Shown: positions 3,232 through 64,000 of the stretch, one piece after another
How positions within the stretch are numbered: position 1 is the stretch's first letter
Layout of the letters: every line of letters starts with the position of its first letter
Assembly: GCA_016790285.1 (NCBI GenBank)
Contig: JAEUPJ010000025.1
Location: 1 to 64,000 of the forward strand
Reading direction: 5' to 3'
From: Roseateles sp.
GTDB lineage: Bacteria > Pseudomonadota > Gammaproteobacteria > Burkholderiales > Burkholderiaceae_C
Length of the DNA stretch: 64,000 bases
Position numbers and translations under genes: made by a program
Notes under the pieces: model-generated
Database searches by the model: none
Told to the model about the DNA's origin: nothing
What the model saw: the letters and a program-made list of their open reading frames with translations, nothing else

Positions 3232-3510
3232 ATGACTCGTTCGCTGAAGAAGGGCCCCTTCGTTGACCACCACCTGCAGGCCAAGGTCGACAAGGCGGTT
3301 GCCAACAAGGACAAGAAGCCTATCAAGACCTGGTCGCGTCGCTCGACGATCCTGCCCGAGTTCATCGGTCTGACGATCGCCGTGCACAACGGCAAGCAGC
3401 ACGTGCCGGTTTATGTGTCGGACCAGATGGTCGGCCACAAGCTGGGTGAATTCGCACTGACCCGGACCTTCAAGGGCCACCCGGCCGACAAGAAGGCCGG
3501 GAAGAAGTAA
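3232..3510 (+). CDS. rpsS: 30S ribosomal protein S19
   Basis: The 92-residue length is standard. It has the [12 protein letters not shown] start and the [23 protein letters not shown] core of S19, which contacts 16S rRNA and S13 in the 30S head. The gene lies between rplB and rplV with short spacers, as in the S10 operon of other bacteria. Confidence 0.98.
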
Positions 3511-3521
3511 GGATGCCGACG

Positions 3522-3851
3522 ATGGAAACCAAAGCAATCGTTCGCGGCGTTCGCCTCTCGTGTGACAAGGGCCGCCTCGTGGCGGACATGATCCGCGGCA
3601 AGAAGGTGGACCACGCCCTCAACATCCTGACCTTCACCCAGAAGAAGGCGGCTCTGATCATCAAGAAGGCGCTGGAAAGCGCCATCGCCAACGCCGAGCA
3701 CAACGACGGCGCTGACATCGATGAACTCAAGGTCACCTCGATCTACGTCGAACAGGGTGCCACGCTGAAGCGCTTCTCGGCTCGCGCCAAGGGCCGCGGC
3801 AACCGCATCAGCAAGCCCACTTGCCACATCTTCGTGGCAGTCGGCAACTAA
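3522..3851 (+). CDS. rplV: 50S ribosomal protein L22
   Basis: L22 lines the exit tunnel through a long beta-hairpin that is also a site of macrolide resistance changes. I chose the ATG at 3522, giving 109 residues starting METKAIVRG. It matches the usual start of betaproteobacterial L22 and has an AAGG about 9 nt upstream. An in-frame ATG at 3513 would add three residues but leaves almost no space for a ribosome-binding site. The C-terminus ([19 protein letters not shown]) is typical. Confidence 0.96.
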
Positions 3852-3866
3852 GGCGCAAGGAAGACT

Positions 3867-4727
3867 ATGGGACAGAAAATCCATCCGGTTGGCTTCCGCC
3901 TGCCTGTCACCCGTAACTGGGCCTCGCGCTGGTACGCCAACAACCAGAACTTCGCCACGATGCTGGCCGAAGATCTGCAGGTGCGCGAGTACCTCAAGGC
4001 CAAGCTCAAGAATGCTGCGGTCTCGCGCATCCTGATCGAGCGCCCCGCCAAGAACGCCCGCATCACGATCTTCTCGGCTCGTCCGGGCGTCGTGATCGGC
4101 AAGAAGGGCGAGGACATCGAAGCGCTGAAGGCTGAGCTGACGAAGCGCCTGGGCGTGCCCGTCGCGGTCAACATCGAAGAAGTGCGCAAGCCCGAAGTCG
4201 ATGCCCAGCTGATCGCCGACTCGATCACCCAGCAGCTCGAAAAGCGCATCATGTTCCGCCGCGCCATGAAGCGCGCGATGCAGAACGCCATGCGTCTGGG
4301 TGCCCAGGGCATCAAGATCATGAGCGCGGGTCGCCTGAATGGCATCGAAATCGCTCGTACCGAGTGGTATCGCGAAGGTCGTGTGCCCCTGCACACCCTG
4401 AAGGCCGACATCGACTACGGCTTCTCGGAAGCCAAGACCACCTACGGCGTCATCGGCGTCAAGGTCTGGGTCTACCGCGGTGACCGCCTGGCCAATGGCG
4501 AGGCTCCTGTCATCAACACCCCCGCTGGCGCCGAAGACGATCGTCGCCCGCGCCGTAACGCCCGTCCGGGCGCTCCCGGTGGCCGTGGCCGCCCGGGTGG
4601 CGACCGTGGCCCGCGTGACGGAGCAGACCAGCCCGCTGCCGCCGCCCCCACGGGTGACGCAGCCAAGCCCGCGGCCAAGCGTGTGATCCGCAAGGCTCCC
4701 GCCGCCGGTGAGGCCAAAGGAGAATAA
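3867..4727 (+). CDS. rpsC: 30S ribosomal protein S3 with basic C-terminal extension
   Basis: This 286-residue S3 forms part of the mRNA entry channel. The KH domain with the GKKG loop lies at about residues 70-85. After the conserved core (about residue 215) there is a roughly 65-residue tail rich in Arg, Gly, Pro and Ala, longer than in E. coli S3 (233 residues) but of a kind seen in Burkholderiales. It probably binds RNA or is disordered. The stop is 2 nt before rplP. Confidence 0.97.
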
Positions 4728-4729
4728 AC

Positions 4730-5146
4730 ATGCTGCAACCCGCTCGTCGTAAATACCGCAAGGAGCAGAAGGGCCGCAACACTGGTGTTGCGACCCGAGG
4801 CGCCGCGGTGTCTTTCGGTGATTTCGGCCTGAAGGCCACCGAGCGCGGCCGTCTGACGGCCCGCCAGATCGAAGCGGCTCGCCGTGCGATCTCGCGTCAC
4901 ATCAAGCGTGGCGGTCGGATCTTCATCCGCGTGTTCCCGGACAAGCCCATCTCGCAAAAGCCCGCCGAAGTCCGGATGGGTAACGGCAAGGGCAACCCCG
5001 AGTACTACGTTGCCGAGATCCAGCCCGGCAAGGTGATCTACGAAGTGAATGGCGTTCCCGAGCAACTCGCTCGCGAAGCCTTCACGCTGGCCGCTGCCAA
5101 GCTGCCGCTGAAGTGCACCTTCGTGGCCCGCCAAGTCGGTACCTGA
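4730..5146 (+). CDS. rplP: 50S ribosomal protein L16
   Basis: This 138-residue protein is standard L16, which positions the acceptor ends of tRNAs in the A and P sites. The region [17 protein letters not shown] contains the arginine that is hydroxylated by YcfD in E. coli. It sits between rpsC and rpmC with short spacers, in the usual order. Confidence 0.97.
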
Positions 5147-59201: not shown

Positions 59202-59702
59202 CTATTGATTCTTCTTGCCGTCGCTCATGCGGATGATCGCAGTGACCAAGCCAACCGCATGAACCAGGTTGTCGCGGTCACCCTCGAACCTGGCGATCCA
59301 TTTCGGACCGTGGAAGAGGTTGTTGCGATAGCGGTTCAAGATCAGCACACAGACGTCGAGCTGCTGCTGCACTGATGCGGAATCGCGCAGGCCGTTCTCG
59401 ACGGCCTCCTTCCACTTGTTCGCAAGCTTGAGGTCGGCAAAGTGTGGCGACGGCTTGCCGTCGACGAGGTATCGCTGCCGAAAGTGCGCAAACGCCGGCT
59501 CGATTGCAGCCCCATCAAGCAGGCCGGCTTCGGCCACCTTCTCGACCATATGCAGCAGGACCTCCGGCTTGCCATCCATGCCGAGGTAGTTGGCCTCGAA
59601 ATACATCCACAGCAGCGAGAAATCGACGATGAGTTTTTGCATCTCTTCGTCGATGTACTGCAGGCCATCTGGTCGTTGTCGGAGCCATTCCAAAACGTTC
59701 AT
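59202..59702 (-). CDS. HEPN-like protein, putative RNase
   Basis: This 166-residue all-helical protein contains RNNLFH at residues 126-131, the R-N-x3-H motif of HEPN ribonucleases. The context (VLILNRYRNNLFHG) is typical of that helix, with the next helix starting near residue 145. The ATG follows gaggggg. It starts 63 nt after the helicase-nuclease stop on the same strand and is probably co-transcribed. It could be an effector RNase or its inactive partner. The family is not identified further. Confidence 0.68.
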   Translation of the reverse strand: MNVLEWLRQRPDGLQYIDEEMQKLIVDFSLLWMYFEANYLGMDGKPEVLLHMVEKVAEAGLLDGAAIEPAFAHFRQRYLVDGKPSPHFADLKLANKWKEAVENGLRDSASVQQQLDVCVLILNRYRNNLFHGPKWIARFEGDRDNLVHAVGLVTAIIRMSDGKKNQ

Positions 59703-59765: not shown

Positions 59766-62300
59766 CTATTCTTCGACGAAATGCTGCAGGTAGTTCTCGA
59801 CCAGGGCTCCACTGCGCACCTGTGATCGCTTCAGGCTCTTGGCGCACTCGGAGACCAGATCCTTGTCAGCCAGCTGGGACTCGCACAACTCCGTGAGTAG
59901 CACCCTGGCATCCGAGATCAACGCCGCCAGCTTTTCATAGGTGAGCGCATAGGACTCGCCAGCTGATGCCGCCTTCGTCGCCACGTTGTTCGGGTGGACC
60001 GATACCCGAACGACTTCGTAATCGGGGTAGTTGGCTTCAAACCATTCCTGGGCGACCAGCAACTGCCCGTGTTGCTCCTTGGTGAGCGCGTTCTTGCCTT
60101 TCTTGCGACTCTTAGCTTCGATGACAAAACCGACGTTACCCGGAAGCAGCCACAACAGATCTGGGCCTTCGCCGTTGTTGTCAAACCGTTCGGAAGACAG
60201 GCCCAGGAGCTGAGCCAGATCTGCAAGGGCCTGTTCGAACTGGTTGGCGGATGCACCGGCATGCAGATGCGCAACCACGTCCTCGAACCGATGCAGCAAG
60301 CCTCGTCGAATGCGGTAGCCCTCCAACTGCTGGGCGATCGCCTTGGCCTGCGGGGTGGGTTCGTCGAGTGGTCGATAAGGGGGGAGTACCTTGGGGCGGT
60401 GGAGGTTCGGATTCCTGGCGAACGCGTCGCGTTGGAGTTGATCACTGCGCTCGGATTGCCCCCACTGGCTTGAGATTCTGGCCGCCAACTGCAGAACCCA
60501 CCCGTGCGTCTGGCCATCGACGTTCTTGTCGTTCGCCAGCGCCTTGTCGAGCCGGGCTATTGCATTGGCGTGATTTCCGTTTGCCCACAGGTTGAATGCC
60601 TTGCGTTCGGCCGCTGCGAGTTCGAACCTTCCCGGATCAGCAGGTTCTGCTTCTACCCCTTCCGCCAGGGTCTCAGCGTGGTACTCAACCCAGTCTGCAT
60701 CGCGGTTGAAGCTCTTGCTGATAGTCGCACCAAGTTCCTTGGCCGCTTTCACTTCCTGGCTGACTGTGGTGCCCATCTCAAGCTGCGCACGAGTCGCACT
60801 GGTGAGCAGCCGAAAATTCGCGTCCTTGGCGACCCATCCTGCCAGCTCGGAGCCCACCAGCATGACCACGCAGTGGTCGCCGGCGCCACGCGCACCGCGC
60901 CCAATGCCCTGCTCGATTCGCTGCGCAAGCATGCGATTTATCGTCGCACCGCCGTACAGGGTCGCTGCGCGCAACAGCTCGTAGTCCGAGGTGCCGGAAG
61001 GCAAACCTTCCATCACCAGCAATCTGCAGGCATCTCCTGGCAGATCAATCCCGTCGTAGCGATTTGCGAAGACCATCGGTCCATTCGATTCCCGCGTTTG
61101 AAGCTGCTCCACTAAGGCTTCCACTTGGGCCGCATCTTCGGCATGCGTGGCGACGTCTGACCATTTCTCCGCCGCAGCGTTGGAAGACACCAGCACGACG
61201 GCGCCGAACTTTCTGGTCTTCGAAGTCCATTCCAGCAGCTTTTCAACGGTGGTACGTACCTTCTGCTTGAACGGCATCAGGTCGGGAATCAGGATCATCC
61301 GCTCGCTGATGCCGGCCAACGATCGTGAGGTCAGTGCCTTGTCGACGAACTTCGGATCGGCGTCGAACGTTCTCACGATCTCGCTGTCATCGGCAATCGT
61401 GGCGGACATGTAGATCCGGCGCGGCGCGTCCTCGAAGGTAGGGAACATGTTCACCAGAGGGAGTACGGGCGTGATCGTGAAAGTGTTGCGACTGATCAGC
61501 GCGTGGCAAAGATGGAGGTTGTCCCGAACGAGTGGCCAAATCAAACCGTAGCGTTTCTCTGCGTCCGCCTTAAGCACCTCACGTACCGCATCGAGCTGTT
61601 CGTGCCATGCCCAGTACGGGACCTCGACGACACCCCAGTTCAGGCCTGAGACCGTGTCGTCGAACGTCCCGAGGCGGTCCATTTCCTTGAAGGCGCGACG
61701 GAACAGGCCGGTCAACTCCTCGTAGCGTTCGCGATCCCTTTCCTTGTCCTTTCCTTCGCCGCGGGCCGGCACTTCCAGCGTGAAAGAGTCCCGTACAACC
61801 GAGAACGACACATGGGCATCGTCCAAGACGACCGCGCCCACCTTGACGGGGGCGCCTGGGCCGCCGCGAAGGCCGAACTTGGTTCGACCGTTAAACAGAG
61901 CTTTGTATGTCGCGACCATGATGGCCTTGCCGTTGACAAAGTCATCGTCAAGAGGCTCACCGGGCGCGTACGGCACCGCGCTGATGCCCAGCGCCTTCGC
62001 CTTTTCGAGGGTCTGATTAACCAGTTGGCGATTCGGTGCCAGATAGAGGACGGGCTCCTGCAACTCATTGATGGCGGATTGCGCCATGAGCAGGCCCACC
62101 AGCGTCTTGCCGCCACCGGTGTGCAGCTTGACGACCACATCTCGATCGTTCCGCCGCTCGAACCAGTTCTCCAGCACTTCGGCCTGGCTGGTGTACAGAT
62201 CGTTGATGCCAGGAGGCTTGGGCAGGCGCCTGAAAATTTCCAGGGGTTCCTTGGGCGCCACCCGCTTCTTTTGCGTCCTCAGCTTGGAAAAGTCGACCAC
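59766..62300 (-). CDS. Superfamily 2 helicase fused to a PD-(D/E)XK nuclease
   Basis: This 844-residue protein has Walker A TGGGKT (61-66), motif II DDAH (160-163), motif III-like MSATIADD, and motif VI-like QGIGRGARG. A C-terminal nuclease-like domain has Asp714 and Glu728-Ala-Lys730 (GPDLLW...VIEAKSRK). I chose the GTG at 62300 because AAGGAGG lies 4 nt upstream; earlier in-frame starts lack a site. It is the first gene of a two-gene operon with an HEPN protein and diverges from a second HEPN gene, which suggests phage defence. It is not a match to systems I can name. Confidence 0.82.
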   Translation of the reverse strand: MVDFSKLRTQKKRVAPKEPLEIFRRLPKPPGINDLYTSQAEVLENWFERRNDRDVVVKLHTGGGKTLVGLLMAQSAINELQEPVLYLAPNRQLVNQTLEKAKALGISAVPYAPGEPLDDDFVNGKAIMVATYKALFNGRTKFGLRGGPGAPVKVGAVVLDDAHVSFSVVRDSFTLEVPARGEGKDKERDRERYEELTGLFRRAFKEMDRLGTFDDTVSGLNWGVVEVPYWAWHEQLDAVREVLKADAEKRYGLIWPLVRDNLHLCHALISRNTFTITPVLPLVNMFPTFEDAPRRIYMSATIADDSEIVRTFDADPKFVDKALTSRSLAGISERMILIPDLMPFKQKVRTTVEKLLEWTSKTRKFGAVVLVSSNAAAEKWSDVATHAEDAAQVEALVEQLQTRESNGPMVFANRYDGIDLPGDACRLLVMEGLPSGTSDYELLRAATLYGGATINRMLAQRIEQGIGRGARGAGDHCVVMLVGSELAGWVAKDANFRLLTSATRAQLEMGTTVSQEVKAAKELGATISKSFNRDADWVEYHAETLAEGVEAEPADPGRFELAAAERKAFNLWANGNHANAIARLDKALANDKNVDGQTHGWVLQLAARISSQWGQSERSDQLQRDAFARNPNLHRPKVLPPYRPLDEPTPQAKAIAQQLEGYRIRRGLLHRFEDVVAHLHAGASANQFEQALADLAQLLGLSSERFDNNGEGPDLLWLLPGNVGFVIEAKSRKKGKNALTKEQHGQLLVAQEWFEANYPDYEVVRVSVHPNNVATKAASAGESYALTYEKLAALISDARVLLTELCESQLADKDLVSECAKSLKRSQVRSGALVENYLQHFVEE

Positions 62301-62653
62301 ATTGCCTCCTTGACTCTTATGAATGTGTGTGGCGCACGGTACTGAGGGCGGCAACGCTAGATATGAGGGACAACCCGAGGCACTGGCGAGCGCCTCGGTA
62401 TTTGCTCATCCCTACACAGGCCGGACCGGATCGGATCGAACGAATTGCATGCTCGGAGGGTACATATTGCGCAAGAGGGCGTGGACCGAGATCGCGGCGA
62501 GACTTCTAGCGCTCGGAACTCAGTGAGGCTCTGAGGGACAGCTGCCCAGCGACGAAGACATACACATTGGCAATAGGCCCATCACGTACAGTGCATTGGC
62601 CTTGCCAACGAATGACCTCCATCCAGATTATTTTCCCGACCAAAGGAGATATC
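62301..62653. other. Divergent intergenic region of the helicase/HEPN locus
   Basis: These 353 nt separate the two divergent starts and should hold both promoters. I found good ribosome-binding sites at each end (AAGGAGG for the helicase, AAGGAG at 62643-62648 for the HEPN gene) but no convincing -35/-10 pair. A hairpin CGAGGC/GCCTCG lies near 62374-62395. Short plus-strand frames here lack support. Confidence 0.4.
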
Positions 62654-63553
62654 TTGGCGTCGAAGAGCTCCAAAGAACGAGTCCGCAGAGCAGCGCCTCC
62701 GGCATCGAAGTCCGAATCAGGGGATGCCCCTCTACCAGGCCAACTGGAGAAGCAATTCAGGCTGTTGCTTGGCCGGCATAACCACCATTTCAACCTGCTT
62801 GAAGTGGCTGCGCACGATTTCGCGGACATCCTCGGCAAGCAGTCCAGTGAAGCGGCGTACATCAGGACTCGGGCGATCAAGATGGGGCAACACTCCGTGT
62901 ACCCGCATGCCACTTTCGCTAGTGCCCGCAACTACCTGATCTACTCCCATATTTCCTACGTGTTCAGCGCTGGGGACGTGATCTGCAAGCGCATCCGAGC
63001 AACGGCAAGGATGAAGGCGCTGAAGACTGAATCGAAATCATTCTTCGACGAGATCAACACCGGTGATTTCGTGAGGAAGACGCTTGCGCTCGCAGTTCTC
63101 GGCACATTGCCACCGGAACAGCGAGACGCCGAGACGGTGAATGCGAAGGTCGAGCAGATCCGATCGCTCGAGCCGTTCGCTCTCGTCGACTACTTCCGCA
63201 TCGTTCGCAATGAAGAACTTCATTCCAAAGGCGAGGCCGAACAGCGCGTCTCTGAAGCGCGGGACGCGCTGCCCGAGGCCAAGATTCGGGTGCTCTACGG
63301 AGAAATGCCGTCGTCGGCCGATCAACTGTCTGCGCAAGACGCGCTCCTGTGTTCCAAGGCCTGGCAGGACGTTGTGCGATGGCTCTGCCGACACATGCTG
63401 AATGATGCAGAGGCCCACGCGCTTCTGAAGAGCACCTTCGGTGGGCGGCTACATGGAGAGCGGAGGGCAACCGCGGCAGGAAAGTTCATGCAGTTCGAAC
63501 TGCTCTACTCAAAGGAGGACATCGCCAACGGGCTTTCGGCGATGGGCTGGTAG
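62654..63553 (+). CDS. Second HEPN-motif protein, putative RNase
   Basis: This 299-residue protein contains RNEELH at residues 185-190, again the R-N-x3-H motif of HEPN proteins, within a helical setting (LVDYFRIVRNEELHSKG). The N-terminal 30 residues are basic and probably disordered. The frame is open further upstream (ATG at 62612), but a TTG at 62654 has a perfect AAGGAG at 5-nt spacing and is taken as the start. It diverges from the helicase-nuclease gene. The tRNA-like RNA begins 11 nt after its stop. No other domain recognised. Confidence 0.7.
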   Translation: MASKSSKERVRRAAPPASKSESGDAPLPGQLEKQFRLLLGRHNHHFNLLEVAAHDFADILGKQSSEAAYIRTRAIKMGQHSVYPHATFASARNYLIYSHISYVFSAGDVICKRIRATARMKALKTESKSFFDEINTGDFVRKTLALAVLGTLPPEQRDAETVNAKVEQIRSLEPFALVDYFRIVRNEELHSKGEAEQRVSEARDALPEAKIRVLYGEMPSSADQLSAQDALLCSKAWQDVVRWLCRHMLNDAEAHALLKSTFGGRLHGERRATAAGKFMQFELLYSKEDIANGLSAMGW

Positions 63554-63564
63554 ACTCATGACAT

Positions 63565-63690
63565 GGCCGGTTAGCACAGCGGTAGTGCACCCCGGGGCTG
63601 CGAGCTTGCTCGCAGCCACCCGACGAAAGACGATCACGTGTGTCGTCTTTCGTCGGGAAGACGGAGGTTCGAATCCTCTGCCGGCCTCCA
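63565..63690 (+). ncRNA. tRNA-like RNA with remodelled anticodon region
   Basis: The 126-nt element has a complete tRNA framework: a 7-bp acceptor (63565-63571 with 63680-63686), U8, a 4-bp D stem with AGCGGTA loop (63574-63588), a 5-bp T stem with TTCGAAT loop (63663-63679), discriminator T and encoded CCA. Conserved A14, G18, G19 and A21 are present. Between D and T arms, however, lie a 9-bp hairpin (63596-63617) and a perfect 15-bp stem with a 9-nt loop (63619-63657) instead of a 5-bp anticodon arm. It should not decode. It lies 11 nt after the HEPN gene. Confidence 0.7.
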
Positions 63691-64000
63691 ATCAAATGAT
63701 GGCCAGCATCGGCGATGTCGGATGGGGCCACCTTGGTCTAGAACGTCCACCACGAGGGCATCGCTGCCAGCGACGCCAAGGCAGTTCGATTGCACCCAAC
63801 AGCCCGTTCTCTCAAAGAATCGTGCGGCCCATCTTCGATGTTGACCTACATGTCCTTGAGAAGAGGCGAAAATGCCGAGCGGCGGGCGTTCCAGCACAAC
63901 ATCACCGCTGCCACAACTCGCGCCGGCGCCACAACGAGAATCACTCGGAACATCAGTCAACTATGTTCTATGTCGTTGTCCGATTGCCGCCGCCATAGGC
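63691..64000. other. Right-edge region without a recognised gene
   Basis: I see no supported coding frame, terminator or repeat in these 310 nt. The minus-strand frame crossing 63634-63960 is the typical spurious frame that arises over a tRNA T arm. No copy of the tRNA-like 3' end, which would mark an attachment site, is visible here. Confidence 0.4.

Follow-up and report, generated by a model that had tools for sequence, protein, structure and literature searches.

In type III toxin-antitoxin systems the antitoxin RNA carries repeats and lies 5' of a ToxN-like gene. In the AbiF system of C. difficile, according to passages of PMC12373285, a toxin of the HEPN kind is neutralised when the RNA next to its gene, RCd22, binds it directly, and a passage of PMC12165695 places AbiD/F near the root of Cas13 and notes a predicted co-occurrence with the RF03085 RNA. 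Here we describe a gene for a HEPN-type protein followed by a tRNA-like RNA, found in 64,000 nucleotides of DNA from Roseateles sp. (contig JAEUPJ010000025.1, positions 1 to 64,000 of the forward strand; the window in what follows). The module is real and conserved, and it is without description in Rfam, Pfam, NCBIfam and the open-access full-text literature as searched here, in agreement with an earlier note on this DNA, which knew of no named RNA family with such a layout. It would add one RNA family and one HEPN-type family, both unnamed, which travel together and occur in Pseudomonadota, on a plasmid of Bacteroidota and in the class to which the Geobacteraceae belong. It also brings a tRNA mimic into the AbiF/Cas13 theme, in which a HEPN nuclease has an RNA as its partner, and makes it possible to test directly whether cells guard RNA-cutting toxins with tRNA-shaped RNAs.

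By analogy, the module would work most like AbiF with its RNA or like a type III toxin-antitoxin system, yet it lacks those of their defining features that were tested; among the named systems tested, membership is shown for none beyond the HEPN motif. As in AbiF/RCd22 (RF03085), a HEPN-motif protein stands beside a structured, hairpin-bearing RNA in a defence setting, and the RNxxxH motif found here fits the R-phi-xxx-H form given in passages of PMC12373285. The module differs from AbiF in having no Abi_2 match (7 of 7 proteins scanned) and no abiF RNA match, in the tRNA body of its RNA, and in the order of the parts, since the RNA lies upstream of the gene there but downstream of, or overlapping with, the gene in 11/11 cases here. 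As in ToxIN, an RNA is proposed to restrain a ribonuclease toxin whose gene lies on the same strand, whereas the present protein has no Pfam match and the RNA is a single, repeat-free, tRNA-like molecule at the 3' rather than the 5' side. The bacterial Y RNAs YrlA are likewise non-decoding tRNA mimics partnering one protein, but the RNA described here has its true ends in the acceptor, the partner is HEPN-type and not Rsr, and no such Rfam match was found. HEPN/MNT (type VII) toxin-antitoxin modules also contain a HEPN toxin in a two-part arrangement, in which the second part is a nucleotidyltransferase instead of an RNA gene.

The gene and the RNA in the window

The earlier note had read an RNA with intact acceptor, D-arm, T-arm and encoded CCA at 63565-63690, 11 nt behind a HEPN gene, and the sequence agrees with this reading, the stop codon of the gene lying at 63551-63553. 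The parts of the module are as follows.

62654..63553, + strand: HEPN-family gene, 299 aa, likely TTG start
63565..63690, + strand: tRNA-like RNA, whole; supported by sequence, folding and covariance model R1 (140.5 bits, with the window in its training set)
63565-63571, + strand: acceptor 5' strand; GGCCGGU/GCCGGCC with one U-G pair
63574..63588, + strand: D-arm, GCAC-AGCGGTA-GTGC; 4 bp with an AGCGGUA loop
63589..63595, + strand: 7-nt linker ACCCCGG, part of a CCYRGG motif read by eye
63596..63617, + strand: hairpin 1, 9-10 bp with a 4-nt loop (minimum free energy (MFE) fold)
63619..63657, + strand: hairpin 2, 15-16 bp with a 7-nt loop (MFE fold)
63663..63679, + strand: T-arm, GGAGG-TTCGAAT-CCTCT
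63680..63690, + strand: acceptor 3' strand, U73 and encoded CCA, from the sequence table

U8-A9 is present as well, and the CCYRGG motif is, in a reading by eye, common to the class of relatives with two hairpins. The MFE of the window RNA was -72.2 kcal/mol, which was equalled by 0/200 shuffles, and the folding z-score was -6.8 over 128 nt and -5.8 over 126 nt. ARAGORN called no tRNA in the window, and Rfam gave no match at E <= 1 across 62000-64000, the abiF motif included. The matches listed outside the locus in the own genome were short pieces of 18-25 bases. The window contained one promoter-like site against 0.5 expected and no terminator-like site against 1.6 expected.

The likely TTG start of the gene at 62654 is preceded by a ribosome-binding-like AAAGGAGA at 62642-62649 (read by eye), and the reading frame is open already from an upstream TTG at 62567. 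The protein contains the motif R184-N185-E-E-L-H189 (RNxxxH; numbering according to 62657-63550), whose R, N and H did not vary across the 7 rows of alignment A3 or the 5 rows of A8, two of the latter being common to A3. Its predicted model is helical (pLDDT 78) with the motif within helix 172-189, so that the R-phi-xxx-H motif in a helical domain, which marks the HEPN superfamily, is present. The motif and a weak resemblance of fold, without a Pfam match, suggest the HEPN assignment only tentatively. Pfam gave 0 families for 7/7 members scanned at E <= 1, Abi_2 included, and neither a PADLOC family nor a convincing NCBIfam family was matched.

Homologues and linkage of gene and RNA

Fourteen distinct homologues were compared, the window included, after merging of L034 with the identical L068 and with a plasmid family counted once, two of whose 50 records were read (CP035634 and NZ_CP129241). 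A tRNA-like RNA was found at the 3' end of the gene, on the same strand, in 11 of the 14. These 11 members fall into two classes.

Two hairpins (6): the window; L065, a metagenome-assembled genome (MAG) of SZAS-59; L066, Leeia oryzae; L067, a Gallionellaceae MAG; L068, Azohydromonas; L036, plasmids mostly of Enterobacter
One hairpin (5): L070, a Geobacteraceae MAG; L101, a plasmid of Bernardetia (Bacteroidota); L108 and L109, from the class of L070; L111, from the phylum of the Erythrobacter genome

The three homologues without the RNA were all alphaproteobacterial, namely L069 of Erythrobacter, L102 of Methylobacterium and L103 of Rhizobium. As the homologues had been found by protein, the count of 11/14 is a fair one in the direction from gene to RNA. 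The earlier note had named a lack of homologues with conserved stems, or homologues with no HEPN neighbours, as grounds against its reading; neither applied, and the reading is supported. Comparison by hhalign of the protein profiles of the two classes gave a probability of 95.9 and an E-value of 6e-9 over 197 columns, and the pairing of gene and RNA may therefore predate the split of the classes.

In the opposite direction, from RNA to gene, the tests were smaller, and all five strong matches of the covariance model and the pattern were sequences from which the model or pattern had been built. When 349 genomes of the order were scanned with the covariance model, three matches exceeded 60 bits (window, Leeia and Gallionellaceae); each lay beside the gene, and each was a training sequence. 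The remaining matches listed scored at most 51 bits and were mostly 74-76 nt, like ordinary tRNAs; orphan RNAs could be missed here because only 10 candidates per genome were scored. A 131-nt match (L079) was rejected as an orphan RNA, being a remnant of tandem tRNAs. The class II pattern gave two matches in 271 genomes, both beside the gene and both source members of the pattern. The R1 model was not sharp for remote members, whose scores reached or fell into the range seen for ordinary and phage tRNAs (L036, 53.4 bits; L070, 39.6; L101, 34.4), and it did not match L108 and L109 (L111 was outside the R1 search). The gene and the RNA almost certainly form a real unit.

The module is rare. Protein searches were positive in 2/299 genomes of the family, the own genome included, and in 1/369 genomes of the class, this being the own genome, and broad prevalence was rejected. 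Further relatives came from the class of L070 (3/277 genomes) and the phylum of the Erythrobacter genome (2/249), the centre genome being counted in each case, and six were found among 35 pattern-bearing stretches of the genome_contigs set. Plasmid records gave 49 matches, or 50 with the plasmid protein as query, one of which was a fragment; the Geobacteraceae protein as query matched three plasmid records. The fragment (NZ_CP090910.1, 26901-27041) covers 17% of the gene, has no annotated feature and is perhaps a decayed copy.

An RNA family with a replaced decoding arm

The RNA has the acceptor, D-arm and T-arm of a functional tRNA but not its anticodon arm. The earlier note described two stems in place of the decoding region; both hairpins are indeed there, although neither is an ordinary anticodon arm, as its term for the 15-bp stem would imply. 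No member has a 7-nt anticodon loop on a 5-bp stem, and arms of about 9-21 pairs take its place. In the MFE folds, the loop of hairpin 1 was 3-4 nt in 6/6 two-hairpin members, the loop of hairpin 2 was 7 nt on a 16-bp stem in the window and 3-5 nt in the other five, and the loop of the one-hairpin class was 4-10 nt.

The alignments supported these structures, with compensatory changes in the long stems, for which the earlier note had proposed a check. In the five-sequence alignment of the two-hairpin class, which was not fitted to the structure, 98.1% of the cells were paired and 14/43 pairs were changed on both sides; four of five measures were reached by 0/500 shuffles and the fifth, further pair types, by 13. 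Addition of the plasmid member L036 via the covariance model gave 98.8% paired cells and 25/42 pairs changed on both sides, with 0/500 shuffles as good on all five measures and slid controls 35-49% paired, figures that lean towards structure because this six-member alignment was fitted to it. Most of the covarying changes were located in the two hairpins, where both sides had changed in 9/10 pairs of hairpin 1 and 11/16 pairs of hairpin 2 (six sequences).

Over all 11 members the acceptor was paired in 77/77 cells, with as many as four kinds of pair at one position; the RNA ends had been picked by eye with regard to acceptor pairing, so the count of paired cells leans upward. The D-arm was paired in 42/44 cells and the T-arm in 49/55, with fixed offsets that undercount D- or T-arm pairing in L036, L070 and L101. 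The encoded CCA noted in the window is not general, as it occurred in 8/11 members and was absent from L065, L066 and L101; the discriminator base was A in 8, T in 2 and G in 1. Four of the five one-hairpin members share the 5' strand CCCCTYCANG and the 3' strand TGAAGG, absent in L109, and L070, L101 and L109 have a C-A mismatch, three pairs and then a G-G or G-A mismatch. Folding was strong in 9/11 members (z of -4.4 or lower) and weak in L101 (z -2.0, 8/200 shuffles as good) and L109 (z -1.4, 20/200). By comparison of the members, the structure of the RNA and its linkage to the gene family are demonstrated.

Annotations at the compared loci omit the RNA or name it tRNA-OTHER, the latter being the RefSeq label for one plasmid copy. 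ARAGORN called no tRNA in L034-L037 or L065-L070 (L101, L108, L109 and L111 lay outside this run). The generic tRNA model of Rfam passed its gathering score in 2/8 loci, with 54.4 bits in L111 and 31.9 in L070 (L067 and L068 lay outside the scan), and the abiF motif gave no match at gathering score in the eight.

Viral origin was rejected, as protein and pattern scans of IMG/VR and phage records yielded no member. Twenty-six pattern-bearing IMG/VR stretches were folded, none with the layout described here. Seven of them (L042, L048, L049, L051, L057, L061 and L062) carry a recurrent phage tRNA-like gene of about 120 nt, whose anticodon-like arm is short and whose variable region is very long and contains several hairpins; others resemble neighbouring tRNAs. 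L114, the sole match of one IMG/VR scan, resembles a damaged tRNA sequence.

Overlap of gene and RNA

The stop codon precedes the RNA by 11, 11, 14, 10 and 1 nt in five members, and gene and RNA overlap by 15, 47, 14, 10, 15 and 10 nt in the other six, whose stop codons (6/11) lie inside the RNA. In L108 and L111 the stop codon is T8-A9-G10 of the tRNA body. RNase P action is established, and cleavage at G1 would remove a stop lying inside the RNA, so that a transcript would yield protein or RNA but not cleanly both.

At its C-terminus the protein has G-W or G-W-L (-A, -TD), for which the DNA reads GGCTGG or GGTTGG (window 63540-63575; L068 6815-6850; L036 4799-4813), and in L036 these letters are at the same time the acceptor 5' strand of the RNA. 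The non-overlapping members may have drifted from an ancestral overlap of gene and RNA.

Proposed mechanism and alternative explanations

We propose, with a probability of about 0.5, that the gene encodes a HEPN nuclease and that its cognate tRNA-like RNA binds and restrains it; of the four roles named in the earlier note (decoy, sensor, antitoxin, substrate), an antitoxin-like one is preferred because of the analogy with AbiF/RCd22. The gene product would be a HEPN-type ribonuclease, harmful to the cell or active in abortive infection. The 3' end of the transcript would fold into a tRNA body with the anticodon arm swapped for one or two long hairpins, and the host tRNA enzymes (RNase P, 3' nucleases and CCA addition) would excise a stable RNA. 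The hairpin part would bind the HEPN protein and keep the enzyme inactive, the hairpins giving specificity and the tRNA body serving maturation and stability; were the RNA lost or remodelled, as might happen in phage infection, the enzyme would be freed. With a stop codon inside the RNA, one transcript would give either full-length protein or mature RNA, and their ratio would thereby be coupled. We infer transcription, maturation, binding, inhibition, toxicity and a defence role of the module. More tentatively, and with doubt on our side, such immune or addiction modules might draw their control RNA from tRNA maturation, the HEPN gene running into its own tRNA-like inhibitor so that each transcript gives toxin or inhibitor, in which case an invader damaging tRNA or hijacking its processing would free the nuclease and the RNA would guard tRNA integrity.

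The RNA might instead be a dedicated substrate or a sensor, either cut by the HEPN enzyme or gauging the intactness or processing of tRNAs under phage attack, with its cleavage or loss as the signal. Many HEPN nucleases cleave tRNA anticodon loops. Cas13a is a case quoted in passages of PMC12373285. Moreover, the tRNA body has been kept while the acceptor sequence varies, which is more than a mere antitoxin seems to need. Nevertheless, the RNA lacks the anticodon loop on a 5-bp stem that is usually targeted, and its loops vary among members in length and sequence; we regard this explanation as possible but rather unlikely. Cas13, a HEPN enzyme with an obligate RNA, is a precedent for an activating guide or cofactor, that is, a stable RNA subunit required by the enzyme, and the hairpin 2 loops do differ among members. 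It is, however, the paired stems, the short loops and a short linker that vary, with no long variable single-stranded segment resembling a spacer, and such a role appears improbable.

The stop codons inside the RNA in 6/11 members, removable by an RNase P cut, would also suit a self-regulating mRNA end, in which the fold is a processing or decay signal, the cut limits a risky protein and the released RNA is functionless. This would leave the conserved long hairpins and the five members with an upstream stop unexplained, and we consider it quite improbable. An ordinary but odd RNA, such as an unusual isoacceptor, a tRNA gene that a hairpin insertion has disrupted or the remnant of an integration site, would account for the one-hairpin RNAs of L111 and L070 passing the tRNA gathering score of Rfam. 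Against it stand the lack of an ordinary anticodon arm, the covarying stems, the linkage to one gene family across phyla and the own-genome matches listed outside the locus, which are short pieces, and we judge it very improbable.

Genomic neighbourhoods

Defence-type neighbours were found at five loci (window, L066, L068, L036 and L070). The neighbour in the window is divergent from the module and lies outside it.

59766..62354, - strand: PDC-S28 candidate defence protein, helicase-like (PADLOC E 3e-283)

The next gene after it, at 59202-59702 on the - strand, encodes 166 aa without a convincing family match. L066 and L068 each have a divergent SIR2 gene of the PDC-S25 type 0.8-0.9 kb upstream of the module (3536-5044 and 3661-5088, respectively, both on the - strand), and in these two the SIR2 gene and the module possibly act as a combined system. 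An Abi_C/AbiJ-like gene lies 0.75 kb downstream in L036, and type I restriction genes lie immediately upstream in L070.

At L065 and L067 the search covered a single neighbour per locus and Pfam only. The former was a gene for a Tpt1/KptA RNA 2'-phosphotransferase (3395-3940, - strand), about 2 kb from the module and of a family known for RNA repair, and the latter a transposase. The neighbour of L108 was an HNH endonuclease that weakly matched type II restriction, and that of L109 a DUF4145 protein. L101 has no annotated defence gene within 3 kb; behind the Bernardetia module, at 3890-4080, copies of a GTTGCAGAGCAACG-like repeat stand in both direct and inverted orientation, followed by an IS200/IS605 transposase gene.
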